Positions 28,430-36,323 of a stretch of DNA of 64,000 nucleotides are shown piece by piece; position 1 is the stretch's first letter, and each line of letters starts with the position of its first letter. The stretch is from the NCBI RefSeq assembly GCF_024138165.1, contig NZ_CP100000.1, forward strand, positions 868,001 through 932,000. Direction: 5' to 3'. A program made the translations under genes and the position numbers. A model generated the notes under the pieces. The model was given only the letters and a program-made list of their open reading frames with translations, was not told the DNA's origin and ran no database searches. This DNA comes from Halorussus vallis. Its GTDB lineage: Archaea > Halobacteriota > Halobacteria > Halobacteriales > Haladaptataceae.

Positions 28430-29359
28430 CTACTCGCTCGCGACGTTCAGGTAGAGTTCGACGCGCTCGAAGTGCGGGCCGACGGTGAATCGCCCGCTCT
28501 CGTCCTCCGCGACGAGGCCGCGCTCGACGAGTTTCGGCAGGTGGACCTGGACCAGCGACGTCTCGACCCGCCGGCGGTCGGCCCCCTCGCGCTCGGCGAT
28601 TGACTCGGCGAGGTCGCGGGACGAGAGGCCGCCGTCGGCCGACGCCAGCAGTGCCAGCGCGCGCCGTCGTCTGGCGTCGGCCACCGCGTCGAAGCAGTCG
28701 TCCTCGGACGGAGCGTCCGGAACCGCCGATTGAGTCTCCCGGGTCGCCGACGGGGCGTCCGAGGCGGTGGCCGCCTCGGACGCCCCGTCGGCGACGTACT
28801 CGACGACCGTGTCGAACAGTGAACAGACGTTCCGGACCGTCGCCTCGTCGTGATTCGACGGCGCGAAGCTGAAGTAGCCCTCGACGTCTCGCTCGGCGAG
28901 CGAGCGGGCGACGTCGCCGAGGAACGTCGTCGCGGCGTCGGCGTCGACCCGGTCGAACAGCGTCGACACCGAGTCGAAACAGACCACGGTCCGACCGTCC
29001 GCGGGCCACGAATCGAGGTAGCTCTCGACCGACCGGCGGATCGCCGGCGCGTCGGTCGGGTCCGAAACTCCGCGGACCAGGTTCCGGGCGTCGCCGCTCG
29101 CCGTCGCGGTGGCGCGCATGGTCGCGCCCACGCTGACGATACCCACGTTCCGCGGTCTGCGCCCGACGCGGTCGCGCCACGCGTCGAGGAAGCTTCGTGC
29201 GCCGCGGTAGGTCACCGCCAGCACGTCGTCGCACGGGGACCGCTCGCTCGTCACCAGCGACAGCGGGACGCCGGCGTCCGGCGTCCCGCGGAGGACGAGC
29301 GTGTTCGCGCCGCCGCCGACCCGCGCCCGCACCAGTTTCGTCTCTCTCGCACCCGCCAT
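28430..29359 (-). CDS. RecA/KaiC-like DUF7504-type protein with C-terminal winged helix
   Basis: 309 residues from ATG 29359. The first 200 residues follow the haloarchaeal RecA-like DUF7504 layout, with the Walker-B-like stretch GRTVVCFDSVSTLFDRVDAD, but lack an evident Walker A, so ATP binding is doubtful. A Ser/Ala-rich linker (about 205-240, encoded partly by a 53-bp palindrome) leads to a winged-helix DUF7344-like domain (FDAVADARRRRALALLAS ... LVQVHLPKLVERGLV). Probably a DNA-binding regulator. It follows the HalOD1 gene by 2 bases and is therefore in its operon. Family names are from memory. Confidence 0.75.
   Translation of the reverse strand: MAGARETKLVRARVGGGANTLVLRGTPDAGVPLSLVTSERSPCDDVLAVTYRGARSFLDAWRDRVGRRPRNVGIVSVGATMRATATASGDARNLVRGVSDPTDAPAIRRSVESYLDSWPADGRTVVCFDSVSTLFDRVDADAATTFLGDVARSLAERDVEGYFSFAPSNHDEATVRNVCSLFDTVVEYVADGASEAATASDAPSATRETQSAVPDAPSEDDCFDAVADARRRRALALLASADGGLSSRDLAESIAEREGADRRRVETSLVQVHLPKLVERGLVAEDESGRFTVGPHFERVELYLNVASE
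28743..28795. repeat. Perfect 25-bp-arm palindrome inside the DUF7504/winged-helix gene
   Basis: Arms GTCGCCGACGGGGCGTCC... of 25 bases each around the spacer TGG. It encodes part of the acidic Ala/Ser linker between the RecA-like and winged-helix domains, where sequence constraint is low. Confidence 0.85.
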
Positions 29360-29361
29360 CC

Positions 29362-29724
29362 CTACCGGTCGTCCTCCGGTACCGGCGCGTTCCGAATCCG
29401 GACGTGGCCGTCGGCGTGCGCGACGACCTCCAGTCCGCACAGCGAGAGCCGTACCTGCGAGTAGCCCCCGGACGCGCCCCGCCCGTCGAACAGCGCGTCG
29501 AGCGCATCGGGGTCGACGTGTTCGGCCAGCGGGATGATCGTCGTCGTCGGGTCCACGTTCGCGACATCGGCGATGGCCTCGATGACCGTCTCGCTGAGCC
29601 CCGTCTCGCCCGACGGGTCATGGTACGCGTGGTACGTTCCGGTCTGGCCGCGAACGTCCGTCAGTCTGGAAGCGGTTCCGGCGTCGTCATTCGTATCGCT
29701 TTTGGACACTGTTCCCGACCTCAC
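29362..29724 (-). CDS. HalOD1 output-domain protein
   Basis: 120 residues. The C-terminal 75 residues match the haloarchaeal output domain HalOD1: VIEAIADVANVDPTTTIIPLAEHVDPDALDALF followed by a beta segment ending in GLEVVAHADGHVRI. HalOD1 usually forms the effector part of haloarchaeal signalling proteins. Here it stands alone with a short polar N-terminus. Its downstream neighbour is the DUF7504/winged-helix regulator in the same transcript. Divergently located next to the CHAT/peptide region, so a shared signalling pathway is plausible but inferred. Confidence 0.78.
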   Translation of the reverse strand: MRSGTVSKSDTNDDAGTASRLTDVRGQTGTYHAYHDPSGETGLSETVIEAIADVANVDPTTTIIPLAEHVDPDALDALFDGRGASGGYSQVRLSLCGLEVVAHADGHVRIRNAPVPEDDR

Positions 29725-29942: not shown

Positions 29943-30077
29943 ATGACAGACACGACCCTTCGCGACCGGATCGCAGCGAATCCCCGGTTGGCCGGCGTCC
30001 TGCTCGCCGCGCTGGCGCTGCTCGCGCAAGCGGGGAGCGCCGCCGCGAGCGGCGTCGCGGTCATCTTCGGCCCCTAG
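29943..30077 (+). CDS. 44-aa single-helix peptide paired with CHAT protease 1 (DUF7503-like)
   Basis: MTDTTLRDRIAANPRLAG is followed by one hydrophobic segment (about residues 16-36) and ends IFGP. The polar N-terminus would face the cytoplasm. It resembles the small haloarchaeal DUF7503 proteins as I remember them. The frame is open 20 codons further upstream, but ATG 29943 is supported by the second family member at 36035-36169, which is also exactly 44 residues. Its TAG overlaps the TAG of the CHAT gene on the other strand in a single CTAG (30074-30077). Possible substrate or effector of that protease (inference). Confidence 0.75.
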   Translation: MTDTTLRDRIAANPRLAGVLLAALALLAQAGSAAASGVAVIFGP

Positions 30078-32272
30078 CGGTCGAGGACGTCCGAACACCA
30101 CCGGAGCGCACCGTCCTCTTTTATCGGATACCGATTGCGAGCGAGGTACTCCCGGAGTTCGTCCACGCGGGCCCGGAGCGGGCCGATGGTCCCCGGCGTG
30201 AGGTAGTAACGGTCCATCTCGGCGACTGTCGGTCGGGCGAGCGTTCCCAGGCCGCCCTCGCGCGGCGGATACGTGTAGAACGTCACGTCGCGGACGTCAG
30301 CGGCCGCGTCCGAGGAAGCCGACGAGTCGGCTTCCTCGGACACGAGTTCGCACAGCATCGACAGTCCGCCCTCCGCCTGGACGACCGAAACCCGGCCGTC
30401 GCCCACTACGGTGTAGTGACCGCCGACGAAGCTCTCCTCGCGGGCGATTTCGAGCGCCGGCCGGAGCGGGAATCCGCGGTCGAGGAGTCGCGCCATCGTC
30501 GCGCCGACGCGGACCGCGCCGCTGTCGACCACCTCGCTGAAGGTGACCACGCCGCCGACGCTCCCGGCCTCGACCAGCGCCATCCCCTGTTCGTAGGACC
30601 GACACGCGTTCAGCAGGAAGGCGTCGACGTCCACGACGTCGAGCGTCGTCGCGTCCAGCGACCCGTCGGCGCACGCGAAGCCGTCGGCGTCGATGTGGCC
30701 GACGTAGTGGAGGAAGTCGGCGCCCGCGGTGAGCGTCTCGCGGAGTTCGGCGGTGGTGAGGTCGCGGCGGACCGACACGTCGAACGGGAGGTCCTCGCGG
30801 GAGCCGTAGACGTCGCTCACCACGTCGTCCTCGACGCGCATCGATTCGTCGTTGCAGACGACGACGATGTCGATGTCGCCGTCGACCGAGTCGCGGTCGA
30901 ACCAGTTCTCGAACGCCGTCGTCGTCGCCTTGCTCGCGTCCATCGGCACGCCGTCGCCGAACCACGCCACCTCCACGGCGTCGGTTTCGGGCGGGCGGAC
31001 CATCCGGGGGAGCGGTGGGTTCTCCGCGTCGGGGTTCTCGCGGTCCTCCTCGTCGTCCGCGCCGCCGCCCGCTCTGGTCCGATGTCGGTCGCCGCCGCCC
31101 CGCGTTCCCGGCCGGTCCAGAAAGTCGTCGAGGACGGCCGCGCGAACCGCCTCCGGCGAAACCGGCTCTCCCTCGGCGGGTCGAACGACCGCCAGGTCGC
31201 CGACGACGTAGGGGAGCGCCTCCAGTCCCGCGGCCGTTGGTTCGACGAACGCGGCGACGTTCCACCGCGGCAGGTGGTCGGCGACCGCCTCGAACGGGAC
31301 CGACAGGTACGTCTCCAACCGCGCGGCGAGCGGGCGGTCGTAGAGGGCGGCAAAGTCGAGTGCGAGTTCGGATTCGACCGCCTCGCGCTCGTGGAGCGCC
31401 ACGCGGTAGTAGCCCTCGGTGCGGACCAGGCAGTCGAGGAAGAACGACTGTCTGAGGGCGCGCTCGACCGCCAGCGAGAACCCGTCGCCGTCGGCGGTCA
31501 CCGCGGTCGACCGCGCGAACGACTCGGGGACCGAACGCTCGTCGAGGGGGAACTCGAACCCGTCGGCGAGGAGGCGCGGGTCCTCGCCCGGCCGCACGTC
31601 GGCGCCGAGGTAGAACGCCAGCGGCGCGGCGACGACCGCCGCCCGGTGGGTCGGCGGGACGACCAGTTCGACGCCCGTCTCGGGTTTCGACAGCGAGTCG
31701 GGCACCGCGAACTCCTCGCCCACCTCGAGGCGAGGCGGGTGGCCTCGTAAGGTGGGGTACGACCGCTCGGGCGAGGTGGTCTTGAGCGCCGACCCCAGGT
31801 ACGACAGCGCCCGGAGCGCGTCCTCGGGGTCGGTCGACGTGGTGACGGTCGCGGCCGGGCGCTCGTGGTACGAGCGCGCGCCGACCAGCACCGTCTCGCC
31901 GCCGAAGGAGAACCGCGTTCGGTCGCCGTCCACGGTCGCGGCGAACTCGCCCTCGCCGCGGAGGTAGAGTTTCACCGGAACGTTGACCTCGACCTCGTAT
32001 CGGTCGGCGGGTAGTTCCGTCGAGGCGTCCGACCCGACCGCCGCGACCATCTCGCCGTCCTCGCGTCGGACGTACCCCTCGGCGACGCCTTCGACCACGA
32101 TAGCGCCCGCCGCGACTTCGACCGCGGCGTCGACGGGGAAGGAGAACCGGTCGGGCGAGACGGGCGTCGGTTCGACCGACCCGGCGGACTCGGGCACCGC
32201 GAGTCGGAGTCGCCGTCGCTCGATGGAGTCGACGATTTCGATGCCGTTCTTGTGCGCGTTGAACGATACCAC
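30074..32272 (-). CDS. CHAT-domain (caspase-like) protease 1
   Basis: 732 residues if translation starts at GTG 32272; an open frame continues to 32407 but crosses an AT-rich promoter-like TTTTTTAA. The C-terminal third carries a CHAT-type dyad: His526 in FLHYVGH and Cys557 in NACRSYEQGMALVEAGSVGG, 31 residues apart, as in its paralogue. The first 450 residues are a beta-rich region with the stretch ALSYLGSALKTTSPERS shared with CHAT 2. An acidic Gly/Arg-rich linker (about 373-400) is extra. Clan CD cysteine peptidases of this kind cleave specific partner proteins. Tail-to-tail with the 44-aa peptide gene. A 34-bp palindrome lies in its C-terminal linker. Confidence 0.8.
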   Translation of the reverse strand: MVSFNAHKNGIEIVDSIERRRLRLAVPESAGSVEPTPVSPDRFSFPVDAAVEVAAGAIVVEGVAEGYVRREDGEMVAAVGSDASTELPADRYEVEVNVPVKLYLRGEGEFAATVDGDRTRFSFGGETVLVGARSYHERPAATVTTSTDPEDALRALSYLGSALKTTSPERSYPTLRGHPPRLEVGEEFAVPDSLSKPETGVELVVPPTHRAAVVAAPLAFYLGADVRPGEDPRLLADGFEFPLDERSVPESFARSTAVTADGDGFSLAVERALRQSFFLDCLVRTEGYYRVALHEREAVESELALDFAALYDRPLAARLETYLSVPFEAVADHLPRWNVAAFVEPTAAGLEALPYVVGDLAVVRPAEGEPVSPEAVRAAVLDDFLDRPGTRGGGDRHRTRAGGGADDEEDRENPDAENPPLPRMVRPPETDAVEVAWFGDGVPMDASKATTTAFENWFDRDSVDGDIDIVVVCNDESMRVEDDVVSDVYGSREDLPFDVSVRRDLTTAELRETLTAGADFLHYVGHIDADGFACADGSLDATTLDVVDVDAFLLNACRSYEQGMALVEAGSVGGVVTFSEVVDSGAVRVGATMARLLDRGFPLRPALEIAREESFVGGHYTVVGDGRVSVVQAEGGLSMLCELVSEEADSSASSDAAADVRDVTFYTYPPREGGLGTLARPTVAEMDRYYLTPGTIGPLRARVDELREYLARNRYPIKEDGALRWCSDVLDR
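30308..30341. repeat. Perfect 16-bp-arm palindrome inside CHAT protease 1
   Basis: GTCCGAGGAAGCCGAC, spacer GA, then the reverse complement. It encodes a Glu/Ser/Asp-rich loop near residue 650 that is missing from CHAT 2, so it is most likely a later insertion that kept the frame. Confidence 0.8.
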
Positions 32273-32568
32273 CCGACCACCTCGAGTCGCTGCCGCGGGT
32301 TTACGTGGCCATAGTCTCGAATCATTAAAAAACCACCGAGTGGACAGGAACGAAGTCGGCGACCCCTCCGTCGTCGGGTTCGGTACGAGTTCAAGGAGTC
32401 GTTCCACTCGGTAACGGCTCGCTTCTCTCAGCGGAGGCGAGTTACTCGGCGATTCTTGCGGTTACGGTTCGTAAGGAACGGATTGATTCGTTCAGGCACC
32501 GTTCCGTCCGTCGAACGATGTTCGACCTTTAATCGCGTCTGGAGCCACGTTCTCGACGGAGAATCACA
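32273..32568. promoter_or_regulatory. Divergent promoter region of CHAT 1 and the cupredoxin gene
   Basis: Reading leftward, a TTTTTTAA box (about 32323-32332) lies roughly 50 bases before GTG 32272. Reading rightward, the perfect 17-bp palindrome GTCGAAC-GAT-GTTCGAC (32510-32526) is followed at once by a TATA-like CTTTAATC, about 36 bases before ATG 32569. The palindrome is a good operator candidate for the cupredoxin gene. Confidence 0.5.
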
Positions 32569-33183
32569 ATGACACAGAACACGTCTCGTCGCCGATTCCT
32601 GAAGGCGGCGGCAGCGACGGGTGCAGTGGCCGGACTGAACGCGACGGTCCTCGCGCAGGGTCAGAACGAAGAGTACATCCTGCTCGGCGGCAAGACGGTC
32701 GGGTGGCAGGGCTTCCGCCTGCCCGGACAGGCGACGGCGAGCGCGTCGAAGAACCCGACGCTCAACCTCCAGCCGGGGACGACCTACACGCTCCTCTGGA
32801 GGAACATGGACGGCCAGCCGCACAACTTCGCGATCCAGGACTCCCAGGGGAACAACCTTCCGGCGCTCGAAACCTTGAGCGTCGACCAGTCGAGTCAAGC
32901 GTGGGAGACGCTGAACCAGACGAGCGGTAACCAGACCACCACGAACGTTAGCCTCGGGAACGCGACCGGCGGCAACCAGACTCAGACCCAGACGGGCGGC
33001 GACCAGCAGCTCGCCAACAAGACCGATATCGTCTCCGAGCAGGGTGCGGTACAGGGCGTCCGCTTCACCGCCTCCCAGAAGATGGACTCGTACATCTGTC
33101 TGGTCCACCCGAACACGATGGTCGGGGAGATTCAGGTCGGCGGCACCGGCGGTGGCAGCGGCAGTAACAACAGTTCGATGTAG
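32569..33183 (+). CDS. Tat-exported cupredoxin (type 1 copper protein)
   Basis: 204 residues with a Tat signal (SRRRFLKAAAATG, residues 6-18) and Ala-Gln cleavage region. Type 1 copper ligands can be seen: His85 (QPHNF), Cys177, His180 and Met184 (YICLVHPNTMVG). It therefore belongs to the plastocyanin/halocyanin-like electron carriers. A Thr/Asn/Gln-rich insert with several NxT/S sequons (about residues 115-150) suggests surface glycosylation, and the C-terminus is a Gly/Ser tail. It lies between the two CHAT loci but has its own promoter, so a link to them is not established. Confidence 0.85.
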   Translation: MTQNTSRRRFLKAAAATGAVAGLNATVLAQGQNEEYILLGGKTVGWQGFRLPGQATASASKNPTLNLQPGTTYTLLWRNMDGQPHNFAIQDSQGNNLPALETLSVDQSSQAWETLNQTSGNQTTTNVSLGNATGGNQTQTQTGGDQQLANKTDIVSEQGAVQGVRFTASQKMDSYICLVHPNTMVGEIQVGGTGGGSGSNNSSM

Positions 33184-33301: not shown

Positions 33302-33979
33302 ATGGCTGGTGGAACCCGGACACCGTCGTCCCGGAGCGAAGGCGCGGTGGTGGAGGGAGAGCAGTTCGCCCGACGGTTGCGCGAACTGAAACGGTCTGGA
33401 AGCGCCATCTTCGTCACGGGGAAGGTCCAGCACGACGCGTCGGCACACCACATGCGCCGTGCGCTCGGCGGGCCGGGCAACAAGCAGATTCTCGCCTCGA
33501 CACACCCTCGGCCGGCGACCCTGCTGCCCGAGGCGGTGTCGCCCCACGACCCGACCGTCACGGTGGTGAGCCGAACCGAACACCAGCGGTCGGCCGCGGC
33601 CCGAGCGAGCGCGCCCGCCGAGTTCGACGACGACCTCGCCGACCTCCGCGAAGAAATCACCGACGCGGTCGCCGCGTTCGACCGCCGGAACGACCTCCAA
33701 CCGAGCGAACTCCGAACGTCGGTCGACTCGGTCGGACGACTCCTCGACGAGGCCGGCGAACGGGCGGTCGAGCGGTTCGTACGAGACGTCTCCCGCACCG
33801 TCACCGGGACGAACGGCACCTGTTACTACCACCTCCGGCGCGCCGACGACTCGGCCGTCGTCCGGGAACTTTCCTCGCTGGTGGACGCCCGGATCGAACT
33901 CCGCCAGACCGTTGGCGGGGCCCAGCAGCGCTGGCACCTCCCCGACGAAGCCCTTACGACGGACTGGGTTCCACTGTAG
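33302..33979 (+). CDS. DUF7504-like RecA-fold protein, upstream partner of CHAT protease 2
   Basis: 225 residues from ATG 33302. Segment RLRELKRSGSAIFVTGKVQHDASAHHMRRALGG and the following HPRPATLLPEAV and VTVVSR match the haloarchaeal DUF7504 layout of a degenerate RecA/KaiC domain, without Walker A. The second half is helical (EFDDDLADLREEITDAV). The stop is 2 bases before ATG 33982, so it is co-transcribed with CHAT 2, which argues for joint function. A second DUF7504-type protein (28430-29359) lies beside the CHAT 1 locus. Confidence 0.7.
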   Translation: MAGGTRTPSSRSEGAVVEGEQFARRLRELKRSGSAIFVTGKVQHDASAHHMRRALGGPGNKQILASTHPRPATLLPEAVSPHDPTVTVVSRTEHQRSAAARASAPAEFDDDLADLREEITDAVAAFDRRNDLQPSELRTSVDSVGRLLDEAGERAVERFVRDVSRTVTGTNGTCYYHLRRADDSAVVRELSSLVDARIELRQTVGGAQQRWHLPDEALTTDWVPL

Positions 33980-33981
33980 GT

Positions 33982-36033
33982 ATGCGCCCGACCGTCTCGA
34001 CGCTCGCCGACGGCGAGGGACTCGAGATTCTCGACCCCATCGAGAACGCTCGGTTCGTCGTGCGAACGCCGACGGCGGTCGACCCGACGCCGGTTTCGGC
34101 CACGGACATCCACTTTCCCGTCGACGTGGTCGCGAGCGTCGAGACGCCCGCGTTCCGGGTTCCGGCGACGAGCATCTACGTCCACTCGCCGACCGAGGAG
34201 CGCCTCGTCGATACGTTCGACCCGACGGGCGATCCGCTCGCGTACGGCGGCCCGTGCGTCCTGGAGGTCAACGTCGCGCCGACGAAGCTGTTCGTCGCAA
34301 CCGACGGCGGGGCGGCGATTCACCGCGAGGGCGAGGACGTCCGCATCGAGTTCTCCGGCGACGCGCCGGTGCAGGTCGGCGTCCGGTCGCTCCACGACAG
34401 ACCCGCGGCGACGATCACGACGACGCCCGACCCGGAGGGCGCGATGGAAGCGCTGTCGTATCTGGGGTCGGCGCTCAAGACCACCTCGCCCGAACGGAGC
34501 TTTCCGACGTTGCGGGGCCATCCGCCGCTGGTCGAACTCGGTGAAGCGTTCGACGCGCCCGCGGAGTTGGAACCTCCCGACACCGACGTCCGACTCGAAC
34601 TTCCCGCCGAGTACCAGTACGTCTACCCCGCGACCTCGCTGGCGTACTACCTCGGCGCCGAGGTGGTCCCGACAGCCGAACCGCGCCTCATCGCCGGGAA
34701 CTTCGACTACGACCTCGCGAGCGCGGACGGGTACGAGTCGACGGTCGAGCGGATTCTCAGGCAGTCGTTCTTCCTCGACTGTCTGGTCCGCACCGAGGGG
34801 TTCTACCCCATCGACCTCCACGAGCGCGAGGCGGTCGAGTCCCGCGTCGACCTCGACTTCGCGGAACTGTACGACGCGTCGCTCGCCGACCGCCTCGAAG
34901 CGTACTTGTCGGTCCCCTACGAGGCGGTCGCCGACCACGTCCCGGAGTGGCCGCTGACCGTCGACGCCGACCCGAACGCCCAGAGCCTGGGCGCGATGCC
35001 GTTCGCGGCCAACGCCCTCGCGCTCGTGCGGCCGATCGACCGGCGGCGAGTCTCGGCGCTCGAACCCTCGGACCTGATTACGACGGCGATAGAGGACTTC
35101 CATCGCGCCGGCGGGTCGGTCGCCGACGTGGACGTGCTCACGCCGGAACCGGTCGAAACGACCGAACACGCCTGGATCGGTGAGGGCGTGCCGATAGACG
35201 CCAACAAGCTCACGGTCGATTCGCTCGTGCGGAGCCTCGACGTCGACCCCGACACCACCATCGACGTCCACGTGGTCTGCAACGACGAGCGGATGAAAGC
35301 CGAGGGCGTCGTCAACGAACACTACGGCGCGCGCGACCTCCCGCAGTTCGACGTGTCGCTCCACTACGACCTGACGACCGACGAACTCCGGAACCTGCTG
35401 GCCGAACCCACCGACTTCCTCCACTTCGTCAGCCACGTCAACGAGGCAGGGATGGCCTGCGCCGACGGCTACCTCGACGCCACGGAACTCGAATCGGTCG
35501 GCGCGAAGGCGTTCGCGCTGAACGCCTGCCAGTCCTACGAGCAGGGGATGGCGCTGGTCGAGGCCGGGAGCCTCGGCGGAGTCATCACGCTCGACGAGGT
35601 GGCCAACGCCGCGGCGACCCGGGTCGGCAACGCGCTGGCGCGGGCATTGGCCGCTGGATTCTCGCTTCGGCAGTCGGTGGGGATAGCTCGGCGGGCGACG
35701 ATGTCGAGTTTCATGTGGACGACCGTGGGGAACGGCGGCATCACGCTGTGTCAGAGTAACGGCGGAAGCCCGATTTGCCTCGAAGTTCAGGAGCGTGGAG
35801 ACGCTCGCTACCGGACGGAAATCCGTTCGTACGCGACTCGGGGATACGGCCTCGGAGGAACTATCAACATGTTTCTCGACCGTATCGATTGCCGGTATCT
35901 CGCCGGCGGTAAACTGGCTACTTTCGCACTCTCGGAATCGGAACTCAGAGGGATTCTACAGAACGAATTAGTGCCTATCGAATACGAACGGCAGCTCCAC
36001 TGGAGCCCCGAGTTCGCCGATTCACACCTCTGA
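33982..36033 (+). CDS. CHAT-domain (caspase-like) protease 2
   Basis: 683 residues, collinear with CHAT protease 1 and beginning at a position equivalent to that protein's GTG. Predicted dyad His485 (FLHFVSH) and Cys516 (NACQSYEQGMALVEAGSLGG), spacing 31. Also shared are ALSYLGSALKTTSPERS, RQSFFLDCLVRTEG and LHEREAVES. The C-terminal 170 residues beyond the peptidase core are AT-richer than the rest. Co-transcribed with the DUF7504-type gene upstream and convergent with the 44-aa peptide gene, one base between the stop codons. Target unknown; the peptide is the obvious candidate. Confidence 0.82.
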   Translation: MRPTVSTLADGEGLEILDPIENARFVVRTPTAVDPTPVSATDIHFPVDVVASVETPAFRVPATSIYVHSPTEERLVDTFDPTGDPLAYGGPCVLEVNVAPTKLFVATDGGAAIHREGEDVRIEFSGDAPVQVGVRSLHDRPAATITTTPDPEGAMEALSYLGSALKTTSPERSFPTLRGHPPLVELGEAFDAPAELEPPDTDVRLELPAEYQYVYPATSLAYYLGAEVVPTAEPRLIAGNFDYDLASADGYESTVERILRQSFFLDCLVRTEGFYPIDLHEREAVESRVDLDFAELYDASLADRLEAYLSVPYEAVADHVPEWPLTVDADPNAQSLGAMPFAANALALVRPIDRRRVSALEPSDLITTAIEDFHRAGGSVADVDVLTPEPVETTEHAWIGEGVPIDANKLTVDSLVRSLDVDPDTTIDVHVVCNDERMKAEGVVNEHYGARDLPQFDVSLHYDLTTDELRNLLAEPTDFLHFVSHVNEAGMACADGYLDATELESVGAKAFALNACQSYEQGMALVEAGSLGGVITLDEVANAAATRVGNALARALAAGFSLRQSVGIARRATMSSFMWTTVGNGGITLCQSNGGSPICLEVQERGDARYRTEIRSYATRGYGLGGTINMFLDRIDCRYLAGGKLATFALSESELRGILQNELVPIEYERQLHWSPEFADSHL

Positions 36034-36034
36034 G

Positions 36035-36169
36035 CTACGGTCCCGGATGAGTGTCGTGGCTGAGCATAACGAGCAGTTCCATCGAGTTCGTCAAGACGAC
36101 ACTCGCGGTGAACAGTCCGCCGATAACTTTCGGGCGTTCGCGCAGTTCCCGGATGATTGTCTCTTTCAT
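36035..36169 (-). CDS. 44-aa single-helix peptide paired with CHAT protease 2
   Basis: A short gene on the minus strand from ATG 36169: MKETIIRELRERPKVIGG, a hydrophobic stretch (about residues 16-36) and an end HPGP. It is the same length as the peptide at 29943-30077 and shares the pattern M-x-D/E-T-x-L/I-R-D/E, then a Pro followed by a basic residue and Gly before the helix, and a final Gly-Pro. The stop TAG (36037-36035) is one base from the CHAT 2 stop. AT-rich DNA upstream (36190-36240) can hold a promoter. Independent confirmation would come from homologues beside other CHAT genes. Confidence 0.72.
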   Translation of the reverse strand: MKETIIRELRERPKVIGGLFTASVVLTNSMELLVMLSHDTHPGP

Positions 36170-36323
36170 CGCACGCTACGAATGTTGCTCCTCGAAAGTA
36201 TCTCTATCTAAAGTAATTCAACTTGAAAATAATTAGTGTAAGACAATTGCTACCCGAAGCAAGCGACGAGATCTCCTCAGCGCATCGCTTCGGCTCGCTC
36301 GAGCGAACAGAGCCGCCGGCCGC

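Follow-up and report, generated by a model that had tools for sequence, protein, structure and literature searches.

A divergent DUF7503 micropeptide gene lies tail-to-tail with a CHAT protease gene in Halorussus vallis and belongs to a recurrent haloarchaeal pair

The short open reading frame on the minus strand at positions 36035-36169 of the window (the whole 64,000-nucleotide stretch of Halorussus vallis DNA that we analysed) is real and not a chance open reading frame. Judged by profile comparison, it encodes a micropeptide that belongs to a divergent sub-clade of DUF7503. That it is genuine and paired with the gene for a CHAT protease is, in our estimation, very nearly certain. Its product is most likely a membrane peptide serving as the dedicated partner of that protease and is probably the protease's substrate or effector. 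The features concerned are as follows, in window coordinates.

29943-30077, plus strand: second DUF7503 micropeptide, 44 residues, over Pfam's cut-off (5.5e-13).
30074-32407, minus strand: second CHAT protease, whose true start lies inside a 777-residue open reading frame.
33350-33979, plus strand: DUF7504 (PF24336) gene (6.1e-39), with GTG 33350 as an uncertain start.
33982-36033, plus strand: predicted CHAT (separase/gingipain-like, clan CD) protease, 683 residues, catalytic residues H485 and C516.
36035-36169, minus strand: divergent DUF7503 micropeptide, 44 residues (PF24335 1.2e-4, 22 bits, cut-off 27).
36205-36212, minus strand: TATA-box-like TTTAGATA, read from the sequence, in an AT-rich stretch.

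An initial annotation had proposed a hidden 44-codon gene on the minus strand, and the reading frame is indeed present at 36035-36169 and is protein-coding; it translates as MKETIIRELRERPKVIGGLFTASVVLTNSMELLVMLSHDTHPGP followed by a stop (44 residues plus the stop codon). The description of this gene as lying opposite the CHAT protease was misleading, since the CHAT gene ends at 36033 and the stop codon of the peptide gene starts at 36035 on the other strand; the two genes are therefore convergent and do not overlap. The peptide contains RPK, which corresponds to the family's [HN]P[RK], a C-terminal HPGP and a hydrophobic segment, the last of which had been anticipated. The element TTTAGATA is situated approximately 36-43 nucleotides ahead of the start codon; across 125 peptide genes of the family, upstream AT content is maximal at -30 to -40, the expected place of an archaeal TATA box. 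It had also been suspected that simple annotation would overlook the gene, and in five plasmid records of relatives, whose gene table was incomplete, the CHAT gene was annotated and the peptide gene was unlisted.

Membership of the family was assessed with a profile built from 124 other peptides encoded 3' of CHAT genes in relatives, from which the peptide at 36035-36169 had been left out. When this profile was run over 1172 reading frames of the window, the peptide at 29943-30077 scored 49.2 bits and the peptide at 36035-36169 scored 31.3 bits (E 7e-9), while the next, unrelated frame reached only 5.1. Among 20,000 shuffles of the latter peptide's residues the top score was 10.8 bits, or 9.5 when the initial M and the terminal GP were held fixed. 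These results bear out the earlier impression of a resemblance beyond chance. They also bear on the simplest competing explanation, namely that a chance open reading frame happens to resemble its neighbour. Consistent with that explanation, the peptide falls below the curated DUF7503 cut-off (22 bits versus 27, E 1.2e-4, and E 0.003 at the whole-genome scale) and cannot be aligned to the other peptide of the window. However, the profile score, which no shuffle approached, and a convergent position identical to that of the whole family refute it, and we give it a negligible probability. Because the score lies under the PF24335 threshold, we refer to the peptide as a divergent relative of DUF7503 rather than as a curated member.

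The second window peptide, which translates as MTDTTLRDRIAANPRLAGVLLAALALLAQAGSAAASGVAVIFGP followed by a stop, is a full member of DUF7503 (48.7 bits for PF24335, above the 27-bit gathering cut-off). The kinship of the two had first been argued from a shared pattern, M-x-[DE]-T-x-[LI]-R-[DE], together with a common terminal GP. The terminal GP is indeed common to both peptides. The N-terminal pattern is confined to these two peptides among 459 nested open reading frames of 35-60 residues, but it is not a signature of the family, which instead reads [HN]P[RK]..G.[LV]FT ... GP-stop. A BLASTP comparison of the two peptides with each other yielded no alignment at E <= 100, and their likeness alone is thus no proof of selection; the attempt to prove kinship by pairwise comparison was dropped in favour of the profile evidence. 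As far as these comparisons go, the two window peptides are linked only via the family. The closest relatives of the peptide at 36035-36169 make up a divergent sub-clade, found beside CHAT genes and mostly in other Halorussus species, with such examples as MQSKLATLGRNHPKV...ADTHPGP and MKEKLTTLGRNHPKAL...ADSHPGP. The entire sub-clade fails to reach Pfam's threshold, with scores of 13.7-22.4 bits or none at all, and an hhalign comparison joined it to the main clade over residues 2-22 with a probability of 97.1 and an E-value of 5e-11. Searches against NCBIfam returned no matches.

Selection was measured on the sub-clade and on pairs from the family as a whole, since no close orthologue of the gene was present in 17 other Halorussus genomes, where the nearest relatives have 36-47% identity. 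The 134 pairs examined, which are 70-97% identical in nucleotides, have 901, 748 and 2109 substitutions at codon positions 1, 2 and 3; NG86 dN/dS values for closer family pairs were mostly 0.1-0.4, and measurable pairs of the sub-clade gave dN of 0.05-0.26 with dS of 0.14-1.8. The family's peptides are under purifying selection. This part of the initial annotation's claim of protein-level selection is upheld, whereas the likeness of the two unalignable window peptides, from which the claim had been drawn, was insufficient. Regional counts from 41 close pairs (the pairs behind both these counts and the dN/dS values are not independent) describe a peptide whose end is invariant, whose core is conserved and whose tail evolves fast: the GP codons (the set was chosen for its GP ending) had 36 synonymous changes and no non-synonymous ones, the core had 143 and 56, and the approximately eight residues before GP had 70 and 77. 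Within the last ten codons of DUF7503 genes, the stretch ahead of GP thus has nearly as many silent as replacement changes, unlike the rest of the peptide, and it also differs between paralogues.

The same codon evidence speaks to the possibility that the short frame is untranslated and works as an RNA, regulating CHAT from a convergent antisense or 3'-end position. Stop codons of the two genes abut or overlap, so that their 3' transcripts probably overlap, which is in line with such a regulator. However, the concentration of substitutions at third positions, the low dN/dS and the absence of non-synonymous changes in the GP codons are features of translated sequence, and conserved amino acids are found at the gene's 5' end, far from CHAT. 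We rejected an untranslated antisense RNA on the codon evidence and regard it as highly improbable.

The arrangement seen in the window proved to be general, and we consider the pairing of peptide and CHAT genes strongly supported. At 36035-36169 the two genes are tail-to-tail with 1 bp between their stop codons, and in the second pair the CHAT stop overlaps that of the 29943-30077 peptide by 4 bp. A convergent short open reading frame ending in GP adjoins 125 of 145 distinct CHAT 3' ends in Halobacteria, the commonest gaps being 0 bp (29 cases), -4 bp (22) and +1 bp (14). These 125 peptides were selected for the GP ending, hence its presence in 125/125, and a few such endings may be due to chance (for example that at locus L173). 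Some of the 20 remaining CHAT ends have DUF7503-like peptides with another ending, and several homologues that lack GP adjoin other CHAT genes. When a profile criterion was applied to 80 named loci, a peptide was found at 71 of 86 CHAT genes and a CHAT gene adjoined 71 of 72 peptides. The H. vallis genome itself has a convergent peptide at six of its seven CHAT paralogues; the seventh, at C1:226437-228608 (L023/L027), has none. Among 195 genomes of the order, 163 have both genes, 0 have a confident DUF7503 only, 10 have CHAT only and 22 have neither (Fisher 1e-21, which is indicative only, as genomes and sequences are phylogenetically non-independent and p-values therefore overstate certainty). 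Haloferax volcanii, the control in this survey, has a DUF7503 that passes the cut-off. CHAT distances and peptide distances were correlated (rho 0.44; 0/200 permutations), as expected if the pairs are inherited together. Given that the genes are placed end to end in these salt-loving archaea, the peptide is the protease's likely dedicated partner.

Several loci depart from this rule. The 10 CHAT-only genomes include some fragmentary assemblies and several with a more distant CHAT clade, and a check of CHAT-bearing, DUF7503-lacking genomes for a hidden divergent peptide recognised none. Members of this more distant clade, carried by other families of haloarchaea (L193, L194, L195, L197 and L200), have no recognisable convergent peptide, and three Haladaptatus loci (L128, L133 and L188) have a tandem CHAT pair behind one DUF7504 gene without a DUF7503 peptide. 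One DUF7503 peptide without an adjoining CHAT gene (L119, 10712-10853, minus strand), on a plasmid of Haladaptatus halobius, lies approximately 2.7 kb from the nearest CHAT gene, with open reading frames between them. On a Halorussus caseinilyticus plasmid (L083, G003:C4:137116-139155), the peptide seems to be frameshifted near its end, reading ...DISPLPTPTPVPKSQ versus ...DISPLADSHPGP in the sister copy; from these endings it is a probable decaying copy.

Such tight pairing would also be expected if the peptide were an inhibitor, similar to securin or an antitoxin, that binds as a pseudo-substrate and keeps the protease in check until it is removed by a signal. Separase is restrained in this manner by securin. 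In line with this idea are the obligate pairing, the single peptide per protease, the co-varying distances and the retention of conserved anchor residues in a small, fast-evolving peptide. Nonetheless, toxin-antitoxin pairs do not usually consist of convergent genes with separate promoters: peptide and CHAT were convergent in all pairs scored, and the co-directional gene order of type II toxin-antitoxin systems was not encountered. CHAT genes without a peptide occur, a hydrophobic peptide would be an odd inhibitor of a soluble enzyme, and DUF7503 is present in most Halobacteria (164/195 genomes), unlike the patchy toxin-antitoxin modules. We consider an inhibitory role unlikely.

Identification of the protease relied on fold comparison. 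The 683-residue CHAT protein scored 13.9 bits against PF12770 (cut-off 24), and 19 of 36 relatives matched at E<=0.1, with a best value of 1.1e-4. Searching PDB sequences with the CHAT alignment gave a chance match only, so that a fold search was needed. An AF2 model (pLDDT 88.6) matched separase (7e-7), SAVED-CHAT (3e-6) and RgpB (5e-6) in Foldseek, and Csx29 was also matched; whole-chain TM-scores of these matches were low (0.2-0.45), which makes the assignment to CHAT a fold-class statement. H485 and C516 are invariant in 179/179 rows of the alignment, and an acidic residue occupies position 539 in 165/179. The model therefore predicts a separase/gingipain-like protein with a caspase-like fold. 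PADLOC had no match for either CHAT protein, either peptide or DUF7504, and a literature search found "CHAT domain" and Haloferax paired in no open paper.

A third gene may supply the control. The DUF7504 gene at 33350-33979 ends 2 bp before the CHAT start, and among the 80 named loci DUF7504 is directly upstream of 45 of 86 CHAT genes. Its model matched KaiC (2.5e-7) and FlaH (2.7e-7) in Foldseek, and the alignment has no intact Walker A, with G[CS]xLLVTGxV in place of the P-loop; DUF7504 is accordingly modelled as a KaiC/RecA-like fold with no recognisable P-loop. Three loci (L178, L186 and L187) encode a fusion of DUF7504 with HalOD1, a signalling domain whose fusion with an inactivated KaiC domain (iKaiC) is part of haloarchaeal signalling (PMC5847659). 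The position of DUF7504 upstream of CHAT, its KaiC-like model and its occasional fusion to HalOD1 suggest a sensor-protease-peptide cassette. A DUF7504-DUF7344 protein (28430-29440, minus strand) and a stand-alone HalOD1 protein (29362-29724, minus strand) are encoded beside the pair at 29943-32407, so that DUF7504 signalling-type genes adjoin both cassettes of the window. Between the two CHAT cassettes lies a gene for a Tat-signal blue-copper (halocyanin-like) protein (32569-33183, plus strand). The link between DUF7504, CHAT and DUF7503 was absent from the open papers searched; a review of KaiC-like hubs (PMC5717392) was outside the search and may note a CHAT-KaiC link.

From these elements we propose the following mechanism. 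The peptide would reside in the membrane, the N-terminus facing inward and the C-terminus outward. In many cassettes, a signal would act through the KaiC-like DUF7504 protein, sometimes fused to HalOD1 and presumably co-transcribed with CHAT, to control the soluble protease. CHAT would then cut the cytoplasmic part of the peptide after the conserved [HN]P[RK], or be held there by it, and the signal would thereby turn the membrane peptide into an active form or lead to its removal. R or K follows P in 123/125 peptides, and K and R are located nearly always before the hydrophobic segment. Separases cut on the C-terminal side of Arg, gingipains on that of Arg or Lys (PMC4357240). The retained P-R/K, its place on the basic side of the hydrophobic segment and this specificity are the grounds on which we propose that CHAT cleaves or binds the peptide at [HN]P[RK]. 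Counting against the mechanism, a basic residue ahead of a hydrophobic stretch is also expected from the positive-inside rule, 10 CHAT genomes have no recognisable peptide, and the tandem Haladaptatus CHAT genes have none. Cleavage, binding and membrane insertion are all inferred from sequence, and we hold the whole mechanism, in which a signal-controlled CHAT cleaves or is held by the membrane peptide at [HN]P[RK], with slightly less than even conviction.

The fast-evolving tail is open to a further interpretation, in which the peptide is a secretory precursor whose variable C-terminal tail (approximately 8-11 residues ending in GP) is freed as an extracellular signal, with CHAT as the processing enzyme or a receptor-side partner. 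In the main clade, the -3 and -1 positions of an AxA-like site (columns 41 and 43) are small in approximately 90% of peptides, and the tail evolves fastest while GP is conserved, both of which agree with this interpretation. However, the AxA-like site is absent from the peptide at 36035-36169 and its sub-clade, CHAT has no visible export signal, and there is no known receptor. We consider a secreted signal improbable and favour the membrane partner of CHAT.

DUF7503, DUF7504 and CHAT proteases are each already known as sequence families, and DUF7503 is named in no open paper that our literature search covered. Most haloarchaeal genomes examined carry the pair, which has apparently gone unrecognised: the plasmid records consulted usually label the protease a "hypothetical protein" and often omit the peptide gene. 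The Pfam identity of the peptide as a DUF7503 relative, the general tail-to-tail rule and the upstream DUF7504 gene all go beyond the initial annotation, and the pairing unites an orphan caspase-like protease with DUF7503 and DUF7504 in a single module that can be tested, for which a substrate, a cleavage site and a sensor are predicted. A caspase-like activity has been reported in haloarchaea (Haloferax volcanii) without clear gene homologues (PMC3615174), and this question can now be tested on a widespread clan CD protease and its linked peptide. A speculative and rather doubtful extension is that a (HalOD1-)DUF7504 sensor, CHAT and DUF7503 constitute a widespread, often multi-copy three-part switch, in which cleavage of the peptide leads to a membrane event such as death, dormancy or signalling. 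If so, the switch would correspond, in archaea, to membrane effectors that are activated by proteases, and it would be a candidate for the origin of the unassigned H. volcanii activity (PMC3615174).

Compared with known systems, the peptide at 36035-36169 shares with DUF7503 (PF24335) an equal length, the P[RK] and G.[LV]FT core, the C-terminal GP and a place beside a CHAT gene; unlike DUF7503, it and its sub-clade lack QAG..AA and have HPGP or TGP/NGP at the C-terminus. The DUF7504 model resembles KaiC-like ATPases and the iKaiC proteins linked to HalOD1, and some CHAT-linked copies are likewise fused to HalOD1, but here the gene stands beside a CHAT protease and DUF7503. With separase (C50) and gingipain (C25) the protease has in common the best fold matches, a caspase-like architecture, the His/Cys dyad and an acidic residue approximately 23 positions past the catalytic Cys, although this likeness is that of a predicted model and no cohesin or SMC context was seen at CHAT. 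Csx29-Csx30, SAVED-CHAT and the gasdermin-linked CHAT proteases also place CHAT beside a likely partner, and the model matches SAVED-CHAT and Csx29; here, however, the partner is a 44-residue membrane-type peptide encoded convergently instead of co-directionally, and no CRISPR, nucleotide-sensing or gasdermin domain was seen. On present comparisons, the pair would be classed among the CHAT proteases that have an effector-type partner linked to them, and it differs from the other linked-effector CHAT systems in being carried by most genomes of a single archaeal class.
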